From Acidimicrobiia bacterium (GTDB lineage: Bacteria > Acidobacteriota > Vicinamibacteria > Vicinamibacterales > UBA2999), in assembly GCA_016871275.1 (NCBI GenBank), contig VFZG01000013.1:1-64000 (forward strand): a stretch of 64,000 nucleotides of DNA. The letters are read 5' to 3'. Below the pieces are notes generated by a model. It was not told the DNA's origin and did not search any database. It saw only the letters and a list, made by a program, of their open reading frames with translations. A program made the translations under genes and the position numbers. This document shows positions 13,729 through 21,437 of this stretch, piece after piece. Every line of letters begins with the position of its first letter. Positions within the stretch are counted from its first letter, which is position 1.

Positions 13729-15738
13729 CTAGTTCAGTTGATCCAGCCAGGCTGATAGCAGCGACGTGTGCGGCCCGCGGCCGGCCACGTAGCGCGCTCC
13801 TTCACTGCGGAGCCGCTCGGCGGCGCCGCGATCGCCGCCGACGAACTGCGCGTAAAGCGCGTGGACCAGCAGCCATCGCAATTCGGTGTTCTCCGGATCG
13901 TGGACCAGTGCCGCGTCGAGCATCGCGACCGCCTCGGCGTTGCGCCGTAACGCAATGCGTGTGGCGGCCAGCGTGCGTGCCGCGGCCGGATCACCGATGA
14001 CGTCGTCGGTCTCGGCGATCGCGCTCGCGGCTCGCGTGAAGTCCTTCTGGCGCAGGTAGGCGTCCGCGATCAACCGGTCGACCACCCGTTTCGGTACCGC
14101 GCCGTCGCTGGCGGACGCCCACGCGATCACGGCGTCGGCGTCCCGATTCTGCATCGCGCGCGCGGCGCCGATCAGGAAGTGCACGGGCGCCGGCGGTGTG
14201 TCGGCCTGCATCGCCCACTCGAACTGCCTAATCGCGCCAAGATCGGCGAACGACAGCAACCCCAGGCCGGTCAGAGCGGCACGAACGCCGCGTTCCGGCT
14301 CCGGCACAGCCTCGGCAATCAACAGGTCAGCGAACCGGCCCGCGCGAGCCGATTCGAGAGCTCTACTTAGTGCCGGCGACGGCGTGGCAGGCGCGAGACG
14401 ATCGATCAACGCCGCCACGATTGGAACCCGCAGCGCGTCGGTGATAGTGAAGCGTGTGGCAAGCGGCGGCGCTTCCGCGAGCAGGCTGGTGGCAGTGCCG
14501 ATGACACGGAAGTCGACGGCGCTACTGACGATGCTGCCCGACAGCTTATCTTCCGCGGCGATGCGCAGGCGATAGTCGCCGCGGGGGATTGTGGACAGCG
14601 GCGCCGACAGCGCCGCGATCACCGGCTGACCTTGCCGAATATCGAAATCCGGCGGCATGGTGCTGTCGTTGTAGATGAGCGGCGAGAGCGCCGCCACGGG
14701 TTCCTCGCGTGCGCCCGTCATCCGCACGATGCGAAGCTCGACGCGAATGTCGGGCTTGCCCGTTGCCGACGGCATCGCGTTGACGATCTGGAACGCCACG
14801 GCCAGCCGCTCGTGCGGCGCGAAGACCGCATCGCGCGCCGGCAGAATGTCGGTGACGCCAATCGTGTACGGGTGCGAGCGCTGCTCCAGCGCGGTGTAGG
14901 GCACCGGCCGCACCCCGATTTGATCGGCGATGATCACGCTGCTCAACCCGAACTCGACCTTCGCCGGGGCGAGCTGCAGGCTCTGACGCGCGACGTGAAC
15001 CGTGGCTTTGGCCGCGGTCTGCGACGCATCGGCCCACGCGATGAACAGGGTGTAGCTGCCCGGCCCCGACGTCAGCGCGCGTTGAATCGTCCGGCTGCCG
15101 TCGCCGAATCGGGCCGGTACCCCCACTTCGAAGTCCTCGAACGGAAACCGGTCGGCGGCCAGCGCGCCCTCGCCCGCGAGGGCGGCGCGCCGCTCTTTCT
15201 CCTCTTTTTCGCGCCGTTGCCGCGCCCGGTCGCGCTGCATCGCCATGGTCTGCAGATCCGTCGATCCAACCGACGCTCCGCCGCGCGCGGCGATGGCGCC
15301 GGCGCCCAGCACGGGCATCTCGCCGATCGCCATGCCGCCACGGCGCGGCAGCAGCCGCGGATCTGTGCGCGATCCCTGAAGCCATTCGCGGACCAGCGAC
15401 CGCTCCGCCAACGTCGTGACCCCGGCAGCCGGTGTGGTCGCCAGGCGCACGTAAACCAGGAGTGGCCGCTCAGCGAGCGCGGCGGCGCCGGGGATGACCG
15501 ATACGGCCAGGTAATGCGATCCGTCGGAGGCGCGTAGCACGTGCGTGAGCCAGGTGTGGTCAACCGGCGTCGTCGCGGATCTGGCGTCATCGACGGCCGT
15601 GACCAGCTTCTGCAGCAGCTCGCGCTGCTGGCGGGAGAGCTCCTGCGCCGACGCGGTGGTCGCCAGAGCCGGCGCGCAAAGACATGTCGTGACAATTACT
15701 GTCGGCAGTAGGTGCGCGAGCAAGCTTGTGTGGGCCAT
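13729..15738 (-). CDS. Exported TPR-containing protein of unknown function
   Basis: A 669-residue protein. The first 30 residues form a signal peptide ending ALATTASAQ. The middle (residues about 200-430) looks like beta-rich domains (SGPGSYTLFIAWADASQTAA; PRGDYRLRIAAEDK), and the C-terminal 200 residues form helical TPR-like pairs (NAEAVAMLDAALVHDPENTE). A basic coiled stretch, QRDRARQRREKEEKERR, lies near residue 160. The track entry begins 221 codons earlier, inside the opposite gene; the ATG at 15738 gives a proper signal peptide. No named family is recognised. It is divergent from the DUF5916 gene. Confidence 0.75.
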   Translation of the reverse strand: MAHTSLLAHLLPTVIVTTCLCAPALATTASAQELSRQQRELLQKLVTAVDDARSATTPVDHTWLTHVLRASDGSHYLAVSVIPGAAALAERPLLVYVRLATTPAAGVTTLAERSLVREWLQGSRTDPRLLPRRGGMAIGEMPVLGAGAIAARGGASVGSTDLQTMAMQRDRARQRREKEEKERRAALAGEGALAADRFPFEDFEVGVPARFGDGSRTIQRALTSGPGSYTLFIAWADASQTAAKATVHVARQSLQLAPAKVEFGLSSVIIADQIGVRPVPYTALEQRSHPYTIGVTDILPARDAVFAPHERLAVAFQIVNAMPSATGKPDIRVELRIVRMTGAREEPVAALSPLIYNDSTMPPDFDIRQGQPVIAALSAPLSTIPRGDYRLRIAAEDKLSGSIVSSAVDFRVIGTATSLLAEAPPLATRFTITDALRVPIVAALIDRLAPATPSPALSRALESARAGRFADLLIAEAVPEPERGVRAALTGLGLLSFADLGAIRQFEWAMQADTPPAPVHFLIGAARAMQNRDADAVIAWASASDGAVPKRVVDRLIADAYLRQKDFTRAASAIAETDDVIGDPAAARTLAATRIALRRNAEAVAMLDAALVHDPENTELRWLLVHALYAQFVGGDRGAAERLRSEGARYVAGRGPHTSLLSAWLDQLN

Positions 15739-15767
15739 GCGCGTCCAGTTACACTTTCGAGCGTTTC

Positions 15768-15773
15768 TATCAT
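15768..15773 (+). promoter_or_regulatory. Putative -10 box TATCAT before the DUF5916 gene
   Basis: TATCAT ends 8 nt before the ATG at 15782 and no Shine-Dalgarno sequence is present, suggesting a leaderless transcript. Confidence 0.4.
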
Positions 15774-15781
15774 CCAAACCC

Positions 15782-18082
15782 ATGCACCGCAACATATTCA
15801 CTCGCTGTTGTACCGGCTCATTGTTTCTCTGCTTTCTGAGCCTTCCCTGGCCCTCCACGGTTTCCGCACAAACGCCCCAAGCGCCCACATTGACGGCCGG
15901 TAAGCTCGATTCGTCTGCCGAAGGTCCCGTGATCGACGGCCGGGTCAACGAAGCCGTCTGGGGCACGGTGCCGCCGCACGCGACGTTTACGCAGCAGGAT
16001 CCTGTTGAAGGCGCCCCGGCCTCCGAGAAAACCGAGGTCCGCATCCTCGTCGGCAAGGGCAACGTGTATGTCGGCATCATCGCCTTCGACAGCGACCCGT
16101 CGAAGATCATCGTGTCGCAGTCCAGGCGCGATGCGTCGCTCACCGAGACCGACTCGATCGTGATGGTGCTTGATACCTTCAACGACAGCCAAAACGCATT
16201 TGTTTTCGGCACCAATCCGCTCGGAATCGAGTATGACGGCCAGGTGGCACGCGAAGGGCAGAGCAGCGGCGTGTCCTTCGCCGGTGGCGGCGGCGCCGGC
16301 ACGCAGCGCGGCGTCATCAGCGCCTTCAACCTGAACTGGGATGGCGACTGGATGGTGCGCGCGCAGATCACCGAGCGCGGTTGGGAGGCGGAAATGGCCA
16401 TCCCCCTGAAGACGCTTCGCTATCGGACCGGGCCGAGCGAGACCTGGGGTGTCAATCTGCTGCGCAACATCCGTCACAAGAACGAGCAGGTGTACCTCGC
16501 GCCGATTCCCAGGGGCTTCGACATTTATCGCGTGTCGCTGGCGGCCAAGATGAACGGCCTGGACCTGCCGCCGCGCCGGGACATCAAGTTGCTCCCCTAC
16601 GCGCTCGGCTCGGTGAACAAGGACTTCACCCGCGCCGCCGGCGATCAGGTCGCCAGGAACGGAGATGTCGGCCTTGACCTGAAATGGGGGATTCGCCCCA
16701 ACGTGACGCTCGACGCGACGGTCAACACCGACTTCGCACAAGTTGAGGCAGACGAAGAGCAGGTCAACCTGACACGCTTCGACTTGTTCTTTCCTGAGAA
16801 ACGCCCCTTTTTTCTGGAGAATGCATCCACGTTTCAGTTCGGGCAGCCCCAGAGCATCGATTTGTTTTTTTCACGTCGGGTCGGTCTTTCCGCGGGGGCA
16901 CTGCCGATTGACATTCTTGGCGGCGGCCGGTTGAGCGGCAAGATGGGCGGCTGGAACGTGGGCCTGCTGAACATCCAGGCAGACGACGTCGAGGACGCCA
17001 GAGGCAACACGGTTGGCCCCTCGAACAACTTCAGCGTCGTTCGCCTGCAACGCGAAGTCGGCCGCTCGAGCTACGGAGCGATCTTCGTCAATCGACAGGG
17101 GTTCGGACCGGCGGCGGTGGCGGAAGACTGGAACAGAGCCTTTGGCGTCGACGCGAACATTCTGTTGAATCAGAATTCCCGGCTGTCGGCCTTTCTCGCG
17201 CGCACGGACACGCCGCAGAACCGTCGGACCGGCCCGCGGGGCACGGGCTACTCCGGCCGCGCGTTCTACAACTACACCGACAATGTCTGGCAGGTTTCGG
17301 GCGGATACTCCCAGGTCGACCGGAACTTCAACCCGGAAGTCGGTTTCTTGCCGAGGCGCGGCTATCGACGTCCGGAATTCCGGCTGTACTACCAGCAGCA
17401 GTCGAAGCGCATCGCGTGGGTTCGGCGGGTTGCCCCGCACATCTCGTACAACTCGTTCTGGGATATCGAGACCGGCAAACGGCAGTCGGAGGCCTGGCAC
17501 ATCCATCCGTTCGAGATTCAGCCCAGGCAGGGTGGCCGCTTCGGATGGTTCGTGGACTACACGCGGGACAATCCGACATCGCCCTTCATGGTCTACAACC
17601 GCGACGGGCGGCGTGTCACGATCCCGGTGGGCGAATATTCCTGGCACCAGCATGCGTTCGAGTATTTCCACAACCCGAGCGCGCGCGTCACGGGAACCAT
17701 TCGGGCCCGCGTCGGAAAGTACTATGACGGCGATTTCAACGGCGTCGAGATCACGAGCGATTACCGCATTACGCCGAAGATCACGGCGAGCCTGGGCTGG
17801 ATACGTCAGAACATCGACCTGCCATACGCTTCATTCCACAACGATTTGGTGCCGATCAAGGCGAATATCTCGTTCACCACGCTCATCAACCTGTCATCGC
17901 TGCTGCAGTACAACGGCCAGACGGGGCAGTTCTCATCGAACCTCCGCTTCGCCTGGCTCAACCGCAGCGGCACCGGGCTGTTCGTGGTGTTCAACGACAG
18001 GCGGGACTTGCTGAGTTCCACGGCCGTCGAAGCGCTCGGCCGGTCGTTCGTGGTCAAGTTCACGAGGCTGGTTGATTTCTAG
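15782..18082 (+). CDS. DUF5916 / CBM9-like outer-membrane protein
   Basis: A 766-residue protein with a signal peptide (PWPSTVSAQ) and an N-terminal carbohydrate-binding family 9-like sandwich (VIDGRVNEAVWGTVPPHATF, then VRILVGKGNVYVGIIAFDSD). A DUF5916 beta-barrel region with FPEKRPFFLENASTF follows. The C-terminus ends VKFTRLVDF, an aromatic end typical of outer-membrane barrels. Family members occur in Bacteroidetes and Acidobacteria with unproven function, perhaps as receptors or porins for glycans. The track start at 15545 lies inside the divergent gene; the ATG at 15782 gives the signal peptide and follows a TATCAT box. Its TAG stop is the first unit of an octamer array. Confidence 0.85.
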   Translation: MHRNIFTRCCTGSLFLCFLSLPWPSTVSAQTPQAPTLTAGKLDSSAEGPVIDGRVNEAVWGTVPPHATFTQQDPVEGAPASEKTEVRILVGKGNVYVGIIAFDSDPSKIIVSQSRRDASLTETDSIVMVLDTFNDSQNAFVFGTNPLGIEYDGQVAREGQSSGVSFAGGGGAGTQRGVISAFNLNWDGDWMVRAQITERGWEAEMAIPLKTLRYRTGPSETWGVNLLRNIRHKNEQVYLAPIPRGFDIYRVSLAAKMNGLDLPPRRDIKLLPYALGSVNKDFTRAAGDQVARNGDVGLDLKWGIRPNVTLDATVNTDFAQVEADEEQVNLTRFDLFFPEKRPFFLENASTFQFGQPQSIDLFFSRRVGLSAGALPIDILGGGRLSGKMGGWNVGLLNIQADDVEDARGNTVGPSNNFSVVRLQREVGRSSYGAIFVNRQGFGPAAVAEDWNRAFGVDANILLNQNSRLSAFLARTDTPQNRRTGPRGTGYSGRAFYNYTDNVWQVSGGYSQVDRNFNPEVGFLPRRGYRRPEFRLYYQQQSKRIAWVRRVAPHISYNSFWDIETGKRQSEAWHIHPFEIQPRQGGRFGWFVDYTRDNPTSPFMVYNRDGRRVTIPVGEYSWHQHAFEYFHNPSARVTGTIRARVGKYYDGDFNGVEITSDYRITPKITASLGWIRQNIDLPYASFHNDLVPIKANISFTTLINLSSLLQYNGQTGQFSSNLRFAWLNRSGTGLFVVFNDRRDLLSSTAVEALGRSFVVKFTRLVDF

Positions 18083-18152
18083 GCCAATAGGCCAATAGGC
18101 CAATAGGCAAATAGGCGAATAGGCGAATAGGCCCCTAGGCCCTAGGCTTTAG
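18080..18152. repeat. Octamer tandem array TAGGCCAA
   Basis: About eight 8-bp units (TAGGCCAA three times, then TAGGCAAA, TAGGCGAA twice, TAGGCCCC and shorter ends). The first unit supplies the TAG stop codon of the DUF5916 gene. Because the period is not a multiple of three, the array puts TAG in all three frames. Confidence 0.85.
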
Positions 18153-18196: not shown

Positions 18197-18226
18197 TTGA
18201 CATTAATTTGTCATTCATATGACACT
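18197..18226 (+). promoter_or_regulatory. AT-rich promoter with TGACA/TGTCA operator
   Basis: TTGACA (18197-18202) with TATGAC at 18218-18223 (15-bp spacer) or GACACT at 18221-18226 (18-bp spacer). Two nested inverted repeats cover it: TGACATTAATTTGTCA and TGTCATTCATATGACA. The local AT-richness stands out from the surroundings. It is placed to drive the two-gene cassette at 18263-19242. Confidence 0.55.
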
Positions 18227-18262: not shown

Positions 18263-18631
18263 ATGGCCGCCGTTGACGCCGCGAAGGTGGTGTCCAAGCT
18301 TGACGCCTCCCGGTGCACGCCGCGCCGCGTGCGGCAGGGCATTTCGGCCTGGGTCGCCCGTGTCGTCCTGACCTGCCTCCGCGACGACATCGTCCGCGCA
18401 TTCAAGTCGGCGGCGGCGCTAAGCCTGTCGGTCAACGGCATCCGCGGCCGACTGGAACCGACGCTCAGATCACGGCCGGCCTCGGCGGTGGGATGGGTAT
18501 CGCTTTGCGACGTCTGGAAGGGGCTCGAAGGCGAGATCGGCTTACTCCGCGACGCCAAGCCGACGGTCTGGATGTGGGCTGAAGTCCCATGTCACGCCGT
18601 AAAGCACTCAACGTCCGGCACCCCCGCATGA
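18263..18631 (+). CDS. Unknown protein, partner of the sce7726-like gene
   Basis: I do not recognise this 122-residue product. It is basic in the first half (KLDASRCTPRRVRQGISAWV) and then has LSVNGIRGRLEPTLRSR and VSLCDVWKGLEGEIGLLRD. Support for it being real comes from context. It sits behind an AT-rich promoter with a palindromic operator, and its TGA overlaps the next start codon as ATGA, implying translational coupling. A helix-turn-helix regulator or an immunity-like partner is possible but not shown. The start is uncertain, since no Shine-Dalgarno sequence precedes 18263. Confidence 0.45.
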   Translation: MAAVDAAKVVSKLDASRCTPRRVRQGISAWVARVVLTCLRDDIVRAFKSAAALSLSVNGIRGRLEPTLRSRPASAVGWVSLCDVWKGLEGEIGLLRDAKPTVWMWAEVPCHAVKHSTSGTPA

Positions 18632-19242
18632 CCACTGCCGGGGCCATCTTCGTCGGCCGAAAGGCGGGCGCCGGGAAGGCCAAGGACGGCGACGTTCGTG
18701 GCTTGCTGCGGGAATACCTTTCCGCGCTCCACGAGGGCACCGACACGCTGGTGCTCGAGGAACTTGGTCTCTGCCAGGGTGATGTCCGGGTAGACGTGGC
18801 CGCCGTCGACGGCGAACTGTCCGGATACGAAATAAAGAGCCCGTCCGACACAATGGCCCGGTTTCCCAAGCAGTGCCGGGTCTACTCGAAGGTCGTCGAC
18901 CGCGCCTGGATTGTGGCGCCGCTGAAGACCCTCGCCAAAGCGGACGTGCCCGACTGGTGGGGGCTGATCGGCGTATTCGAGCTCGACGATCGGCTGGCCC
19001 TCCGCCTGGTGCGACCCGCGGCACCGAACCCGACGCTCGATCCGCGTTCGATCGCGCGCCTGCTGTGGCGCGATGAAGCCCTGGAAGTACTCAGAAACGC
19101 CGGCTGCGCCCGTGGCGTGATGACGAAGTCACGCCGGATGATCTGGAAGCGGCTGGTGGAAAAGGTGTCGCTCGACGACTTGCGTGCCGCCGTTCGCGCG
19201 GCGCTGAAGCGGCGGCCGGAGATGATTGAACTACTGGACTAG
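18628..19242 (+). CDS. sce7726-family protein (nuclease-like fold)
   Basis: A 204-residue protein matching the sce7726 family: EELGLCQGDVRVDVAAVDGE followed by GYEIKSPSDTMARFPKQCRV and VYSKVVDRAWIVAP. The E..D..(E)IK pattern (VRVDVAA and GYEIKS) resembles the PD-(D/E)xK nuclease core, so a nuclease role is inferred, not proven. VPDWWGL is also typical. The start at 18628 is chosen over 18589 because it overlaps the preceding stop as ATGA. Members are often found in variable, defence-rich regions. Here it lies beside tRNA-Phe and insertion-sequence debris, which fits horizontal acquisition. Confidence 0.75.
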   Translation: MTTAGAIFVGRKAGAGKAKDGDVRGLLREYLSALHEGTDTLVLEELGLCQGDVRVDVAAVDGELSGYEIKSPSDTMARFPKQCRVYSKVVDRAWIVAPLKTLAKADVPDWWGLIGVFELDDRLALRLVRPAAPNPTLDPRSIARLLWRDEALEVLRNAGCARGVMTKSRRMIWKRLVEKVSLDDLRAAVRAALKRRPEMIELLD

Positions 19243-19275: not shown

Positions 19276-19351
19276 GGCCAGGTAGCTCAGTTGGTAGAGC
19301 ATGCGACTGAAAATCGCAGTGTCGGCGGTTCGATTCCGTCCCTGGCCACCA
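19276..19351 (+). tRNA. tRNA-Phe (GAA)
   Basis: A complete 76-nt cloverleaf. The acceptor stem is GGCCAGG/CCTGGCC, the D-arm GCTC...GAGC, and the anticodon stem TGCGA/TCGCA with loop CTGAAAA (anticodon GAA). A 5-nt variable loop and the T-arm GGCGG-TTCGATT-CCGTC follow. CCA is encoded after discriminator A. Insertion-sequence fragments follow directly. Confidence 0.97.
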
Positions 19352-19404: not shown

Positions 19405-19533
19405 TCAAGTAGACAGTCCTAATGGAGACTGCCCGGTTGATGAAGGCCTCGGCAGAAACGAGACGGGCGCGCCGGCCTTGGCCTGCTTCAAGACTGCGGT
19501 GATCTGCTCAACGGAAAAGCGCTTCTTCTTCAC
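19405..19533 (-). pseudogene. IS3-family transposase OrfA remnant
   Basis: From a GTG at 19533 the frame reads VKKKRFSVEQITAVLKQAKA then GAPV, the N-terminal helix of IS3/IS911-type OrfA helix-turn-helix proteins. After about 24 residues the similarity ends and the frame runs to a stop at 19405. The rest of OrfA and all of OrfB are absent from the neighbouring sequence. Confidence 0.7.
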
Positions 19534-20192
19534 GGCACTGCCTCCTCGGCCAACGGGCCCGATTGTGCCGCAAAACTCACTCTCCAAATGAGCTGAGAAA
19601 TGAGGAGCCCCTCACCCGCGGGACCATCGCGCCCAACCCCTGTCCAATTGCCATTGACGTTACGAAATGAACGAGGTGAGAGGGCGCCGTTTCCTGACCT
19701 TTCGACGATAGGCCGTATTAGGGGCCTCCCTCGAACGGCAGCTCGGCGTGTCCTTCCATGCGCAGGATCGGGGCTCTCCAGAATCCGCCGACCGTCTTTG
19801 CACGTCAGGCAAACTCCGCGAACGGCCCACAGCAGGTCAACAACGGCGTCTGGCTTCTTAGCCCTGGTCAATTCTCAATGAGCCGCCCTGGTCAGTTTCT
19901 AACGGGCGGCAACACGCCGGACCGCCCGTCATGAATCCGAGTGGCATCCGGTCCGCTCCCCGTCGACGGCTGAGCGAGTGCCGGCATGGCCACGGCCAAT
20001 ACACCAAACGATCACCCCAGGTCGCATCAGTCCACACGGTACCAGCGATTGCGCAATCGGGACGAACGCCGACACGAACCCCGGCAGGGCAGCATCACCA
20101 GCGTTTGCACGTGTCGGCGGCCGCGGTAATATTCGGGGGGCGTTCGTTTCAATGACGATAGCCCGAGGACCCTACGGTGCCTGGAGTCGCTG
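19534..20192. other. Gene-free stretch with insertion-sequence debris
   Basis: No convincing gene. The stretch holds short open frames without recognisable families, the tandem 24-bp repeat at 19862-19909, and otherwise featureless GC-rich sequence up to the DinB gene. A frame on the minus strand (19530-19871) encodes no domain I can name. Confidence 0.5.
19862..19909. repeat. Two 24-bp direct repeats, IS21-like terminal repeats
   Basis: CCCTGGTCAATTCTCAATGA (24-bp unit ending GCCG) and CCCTGGTCAGTTTCTAACGG (ending GCGG) are adjacent imperfect copies. Multiple terminal repeats containing TGGTCA are typical of IS21-family ends. No istA or istB remnant could be identified, so this is a tentative assignment. 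Confidence 0.45.
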
Positions 20193-20672: not shown

Positions 20673-21437
20673 CTATTGCAGCCACGCCGCGAACCGATCG
20701 ATCGCGCGCTCGAGGCGCGGCTGCGCGTTCCCGGCCGTTGAACCTGCGTCAAGCCACACCGAGCGGTCGAGGCCGATCATCCGGCCGCCTGGCCATGCCA
20801 ACGACCTGAGCGCGATGGTGCCGTCGAGACCGGGATACGCCAGCAGGATTTCAGAGCCGCTGTCGCACAGCAGTTGACTGGTGTGCACCGTGTCGGGCGG
20901 CATCCACTTCGCGCGGCCTGCAACCGTGGCGTAGAATGGCCGCAGCTGCTCTGCCGTGTGCGGCACCGGCTGCACCACGGGGTCGTGATGGCGCGTGCGC
21001 ATCGGATGCTGCTCCAGCCACACCTGCATCGTCGTCAAGGCATGCGCCCAGCCCGACACGGTGCCTGAGAAGCCCGCGTCCCTCTTTGGATCTTCCGGGA
21101 AGCCCGAGTTGACAAGCCGCATCACGGTATCGCCGCCATCTTTCTCGATGGTGATTCCCATCAGGTATGGCATGCCGTCCGGCCCGTCGTCTCCCGCTGT
21201 GACAAAGGTCTTACCCGGCTCGGACTCGACGACCGGAATGTCCATCACGTAGCCGAAGGTGTCGAAGAATCACCGCATGGTGGTGCCGGCGTGGCCCATG
21301 CTTTCGGCCCGATCGATGAACCAGTTGGCCAGCTGCTGTGGATCGGCCCACGCCTCCCAGACGCGCTGGAGTGTGGACTTGATGCGAATCGACGTATCGA
21401 TGATACGGCCGTGGTGCTTGCGGGTCGTCGGAGTCAT
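20673..21437 (-). pseudogene. SRPBCC (AHSA1-like) protein interrupted by an in-frame TGA
   Basis: From the ATG at 21437 the frame reads MTPTTRKHHGRIIDTSIRIK, then VWEAWADPQQLANWFIDRAE, the start of an Activator-of-Hsp90-like SRPBCC domain. A TGA stop lies at 21270-21272. Translation continues in the same frame as FFDTFGYVMDIPVVESEPGK, and a second SRPBCC-like half runs to 20673. Family members usually have Trp just before this Phe-rich strand, so a TGG-to-TGA change is likely. The downstream part can be read as a 191-residue ORF from 21248 but lacks the start of its domain. A sequencing error is the alternative. Confidence 0.75.

Follow-up and report, generated by a model that had tools for sequence, protein, structure and literature searches.

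Two short genes stand in front of a tRNA-Phe gene in the 64,000-nucleotide stretch of bacterial DNA analyzed here (the window). An earlier note had read them as a two-gene cassette, in which a regulator-like gene (P0001) is coupled to a nuclease-like gene of the sce7726 family (P0002) behind a palindromic operator, similar to small defence or toxin modules. Are the two genes a functional pair, and if they are not, what does an sce7726 gene do at this place?

Layout of the locus

The open reading frames of P0001 (18263-18631, + strand, 122 aa) and P0002 (18628-19242, + strand, 204 aa) share an ATGA stop/start overlap at 18628-18631. The P0002 start at 18628 agrees with the congener protein, which starts at the same residue. 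ARAGORN placed a tRNA-Phe (GAA) gene at 19276-19351 (+ strand), 33 bp after the end of the sce7726 gene. All these features were present as described before. The insertion-sequence debris mentioned in the earlier note was also found, though it is slight: a single remnant of an IS3-family OrfA N-terminus at 19405-19587 (- strand), which matched annotated IS3 transposases in tblastn (up to 63% over 46 aa). The locus is anchored in the flanking backbone by a DUF5916 gene (15545-18082, + strand; PF19313, 4e-25) that is syntenic in most congeners examined. The tRNA-Phe gene was present at high identity in eight of the nine genomes of the genus, the window's own genome included.

Several other features were noted in the surroundings. 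At 18080-18141, after the DUF5916 gene, TAGGCCAA is repeated in tandem about 7.8 times. A 15-mer of this array, AATAGGCCAATAGGC, occurred eight times on seven contigs of the genome and was never read backwards. On the other side of tRNA-Phe, the window carries the IS3 debris, a DinB-like gene and uvrA; in the congeners G001, G003 and G004, recA and a PAP2-like gene were placed there by sequence inspection. The orientation of tRNA-Phe relative to its neighbours varied among congeners (L008, L024, L055, L056 and L058). Two minus-strand open reading frames, 20673-21248 and 21270-21437, matched the two ends of AHSA1 (PF08327), suggesting one AHSA1 gene split by a frameshift or stop.

The first gene and its upstream region

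P0001 had no match in Pfam, NCBIfam, PHROGs or PADLOC, and tblastn found no match to it in plasmids, phages or viral contigs. A six-frame search recovered homologues in five related genomes (E 9e-21 to 3e-34), and its relatives turned up in related genomes only. Because of these homologues, P0001 is a real coding sequence as judged from sequence. The full-length homologues have 157-164 aa and are MerR-like, and the one from G135 matched PF13411 MerR_1 at 23.0 bits (cut-off 21.6).

Compared with the aligned homologues, P0001 carries a 39-aa (117 bp) in-frame deletion between codons 24 and 25 (18334/18335), which is known from one assembly of 124 contigs and may be an assembly error. The deletion starts midway through the HTH, extends into the helices after it and leaves P0001 without a complete N-terminal winged HTH. 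The likeness to MerR regulators (PF13411) therefore belongs to the full-length relatives, one of them above the Pfam cut-off, whereas P0001 lacks 39 aa of the domain and matches no family. The AlphaFold2 model of P0001 alone had a pLDDT of 39, too low for the model to be used. The dN/dS of P0001 against the congener G008 was 0.26, which points to coding ancestry. P0001 is most likely dead as a DNA-binding regulator; its frame is still open, and at this dN/dS it may have kept some function after the deletion. The term "regulator-like" thus held for its ancestry but not for the present gene, whose HTH domain is 39 aa short. In G135, G012 and G014 (L025, L027 and L028), the full-length MerR-like relatives adjoin an apparent comM/YifB-type gene, assigned by reading the translation; the gene orientation differs among these loci.

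A promoter-like element, TTGACA-N15-TATGAC, was located at 18197-18223 (+ strand), with no other exact match within the window. All six P0001 family members share TTGACA and TAT/TAA, N15 apart, in their upstream regions. Two short palindromes, TGACA-TTAATT-TGTCA (18198-18213) and GTCAT-TCAT-ATGAC (18210-18223), together span 18198-18223. The palindromes behind the supposed operator do exist, but they overlap the promoter-like element, and they were not conserved upstream of the P0001 homologues when the six family members were compared. We do not count a palindromic operator among the conserved features, since only TTGACA-N15-TAT/TAA recurs across the family. Visual inspection of G008 showed another short dyad, different from these palindromes, at the equivalent upstream position.

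The second gene product and its predicted fold

P0002 matched NF033832 (sce7726) with an E value of 8.8e-38, residues 19-196 aligning to positions 2-182 of the 184-position profile. The score was 130.1 bits, against a curated cut-off of 70 bits. It also matched PHROG 984 and PADLOC cll (3e-16). On sequence grounds, P0002 is solidly a true, intact sce7726-family protein, as the earlier note had it. In an alignment of 53 sequences, E45, D56, E68, K70, Q82 and Y86 of P0002 were conserved. The codons of its E-x-K catalytic motif (E68-K70) lie at 18829-18837 (+ strand), and E68 and K70 were invariant in both alignments.

The AlphaFold2 model of P0002 had a pLDDT of 93.8. Its elements are a helix at 20-34, strands at 41-48, 53-60 and 64-69, a helix at 79-89 and a strand at 92-98, and this alpha-beta-beta-beta-alpha-beta order is that of the PD-(D/E)XK core. 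P0002 is thus confidently predicted to have a PD-(D/E)XK fold with E45, D56, E68 and K70 as intact catalytic residues. The model agrees with the restriction-nuclease-like core proposed before, and the proposed check on catalytic residues found them present.

Foldseek analysis of the P0002 model gave 3dnx (SPO1766), which we take to be MmcB-like, as the sole PDB match with E < 0.001 (E 2e-5, probability 1.00; 25% identity over 148 columns; TM-score 0.43/0.58). Several viral model matches were annotated as MmcB-like, and phrog_5429 ("DNA repair protein") matched P0002 weakly. A PDB sequence search with the sce7726 profile gave no significant match. P0002 and the MmcB-like proteins have the PD-(D/E)XK core in common; P0002 differs by an extra C-terminal helical region and belongs to a separate sequence family.

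The dN/dS of P0002 against the congener G007 was 0.14, at a dS of 1.34 that is near saturation. Because of this value, P0002 appears to be under purifying selection, which argues against decay. Within the genus, two of nine genomes had an sce7726 match; the figures were 5 of 149 for relatives and 10 of 396 for genomes of the phylum. Viral contigs, plasmids and phages are rich in members of the family.

The usual partner of sce7726

Annotated phage and plasmid records show a "beta family protein" gene tail-to-tail with sce7726, the two tails overlapping. By the beta profile, a convergent beta gene adjoined sce7726 in 16 of 27 hand-collected loci, a set that includes near-duplicates. The same held for 43 of 49 viral lineages after clustering at 80%. 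G013 and G107, from the same order as the window genome, also carry a convergent beta next to sce7726. Beta, convergent and overlapping at the tail, is the real partner of sce7726 genes.

The same order is known from satellite P4, in which gop and beta are followed by a convergent cII. P4 cII is a member of NF033832 (2.5e-44), and PADLOC cll matched P0002, the congener protein and P4 cII. The gop-beta-cII system protects against lambda and P1, and gop is toxic without beta (Rousset et al., PMC9122126). The link to defence drawn in the earlier note was supported at the level of the family, as P0002 and the cII of this system belong to the same one (NF033832, PADLOC cll). P0002 differs from P4 cII in length (204 aa vs 264 aa), and it is preceded by an unrelated regulator remnant.

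Beta proteins also matched PD-lambda-2_C, and in Sinorhizobium the adjoining gene was PD-lambda-2_B. The C protein is required for PD-lambda-2 defence against lambda-vir (Vassallo et al., PMC9519451). On Sinorhizobium and Agrobacterium plasmids (L071:3911-6819 and L065:3965-6844), sce7726 is convergent to beta, followed by an Xre-family gene; in Sinorhizobium the beta and Xre-family genes match PD-lambda-2_C and PD-lambda-2_B, respectively. In such PD-lambda-2 loci, sce7726 may be an unrecognised extra component. The sce7726 proteins of the beta-paired loci, some of them with PD-lambda-2 B and C (PMC9519451), are of the same family as P0002, but the window has no adjacent beta/PD-lambda-2_C or Xre-peptidase gene. 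Among open-access papers, we found none that linked the sce7726 family to beta or to the tested defence systems.

We searched the window genome for these partners. PF14350 (beta), a profile that matches beta genes called PD-lambda-2_C, was not found in this genome or in eight congeners by profile search (controls positive), and gop (PDLC03001) was not found in this genome (P4 control positive); because the assembly consists of 124 contigs, a partner may have been left out of it, and profile searches could overlook a beta or gop gene that has degenerated. Of the gop-beta-cII system, a cII-family protein was thus present and convergent beta and gop were not found; of PD-lambda-2, the beta-family C gene was not found.

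In a tree of 75 sce7726 sequences, the window protein and that of G007 paired with full support, and a long stem leads to them. Orphans were scattered among mostly beta-paired sequences in the same tree, with eight changes. Two relatives from the same phylum, in G297 and G423 (L087 and L088), have NF033832 as their best match, but no beta gene adjoins them and the tree places them outside the branch of beta-paired sequences. P0002 is a new orphan member of the known sce7726/cII family, which has lost its usual partner or never had it.

An orphan of this kind might be a chromosomal DNA-repair or DNA-processing nuclease of the MmcB-like kind, rather than a defence protein. The failure to find beta fits this explanation, as do 3dnx as the best solved-structure match, the MmcB-like annotations of viral models and the weak phrog_5429 match. 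We regard it as unlikely: the sequence puts P0002 firmly in sce7726/cII and not in MmcB, its rare, patchy occurrence (5/149 relatives, 10/396 phylum genomes) is unlike that of a housekeeping repair gene, and viral contigs and plasmids often carry the family.

Still less probable is a decaying relic, in which P0002 would be a non-functional cII gene left behind when the rest of a beta-cII module was lost. P0002 is full-length with every catalytic residue intact, its predicted fold is confident, and the dN/dS of 0.14 against G007 speaks for constraint. These observations weigh against the relic more than the missing beta, the broken regulator and IS3 debris beside the gene, its presence in two of nine genomes of the genus and its long stem branch weigh for it.

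Conservation of the gene pair

The neighbourhood of tRNA-Phe was compared among congeners. G007 has an sce7726 gene (75% identical) at the same locus, and in place of P0001 it has an aminotransferase gene 5' of it (class-V by sequence inspection). In G008, tRNA-Phe is preceded by a full-length MerR-like gene, and the genome gave no sce7726 match. In G005, the aminotransferase gene is followed by the tRNA, with neither P0001 nor sce7726 between them. The locus is a variable accessory slot at tRNA-Phe, after a conserved DUF5916/aminotransferase block. An integrative element targeting the tRNA was considered but not adopted, as no integrase was observed and the sce7726 gene is located 5' of the tRNA; the plain aminotransferase-tRNA arrangement of G005 also disfavours it.

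The survey of the pair drew on genome searches and on viral, phage and plasmid records. A P0001 homologue was near sce7726 in none of 26 other loci and in none of 49 distinct viral lineages (clustered at 80%). P0001 homologues occurred without adjacent sce7726, and in G013 both genes were present on separate contigs. Within the data examined, the P0001-sce7726 adjacency is unique to this genome. Joint conservation of the two genes was not found, and the cassette proposed in the earlier note failed its own conservation check, because the first gene is not kept beside sce7726 homologues; beta, the usual sce7726 partner, was not found either.

A functional defence or toxin-antitoxin cassette, with P0001 regulating or neutralising the sce7726 nuclease, is thus very improbable, as the ATGA overlap, the shared promoter-like element and the open frame of a gene of regulator ancestry stand against a pair seen only here (0/26 and 0/49), an orthologous sce7726 in G007 without P0001, P0001 homologues without adjacent sce7726 and a missing HTH core.

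Discussion

The locus is probably best explained as an orphan cII-type PD-(D/E)XK nuclease-like gene in an accessory slot at tRNA-Phe, behind an unrelated MerR-like remnant, and not as a conserved cassette. Two unrelated genes would have been brought together between the DUF5916/aminotransferase block and tRNA-Phe. Transcription would start from the promoter of the old regulator, and the ATGA overlap would couple the translation of sce7726 to that of P0001. P0001 now most likely supplies only the promoter and this translational coupling.

As predicted from its model, P0002 would be a nuclease, most likely cutting nucleic acid with a divalent metal, and its substrate may be foreign or damaged DNA. 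Elsewhere, sce7726/cII functions in anti-phage modules, with a convergent beta gene facing it. We favour a defence role for P0002 because of its family membership, its patchy distribution (10/396) and the abundance of the family in phages and plasmids; a repair role is possible. More tentatively, P0002 could be a stand-alone cII/sce7726 nuclease, fixed at the tRNA-Phe slot in the genus, that needs neither beta nor gop to protect the cell or process DNA; we consider this conceivable but doubtful. If it is true, the stand-alone form would make cII the effector itself and not an add-on to the toxin-antitoxin pair formed by gop and beta.

The analysis corrects a false cassette reading. The survey pointed to the convergent beta-sce7726 pair as the real unit and to sce7726 as an additional gene in some PD-lambda-2 loci. 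Because P4 cII belongs to the sce7726 family, this family of "unknown function" is now tied to a tested anti-phage system. The association of sce7726 with beta in phages, plasmids and bacteria, also together with PD-lambda-2 genes, is a more useful lead than this locus, and the function of cII by itself can be addressed cleanly in orphans like P0002.
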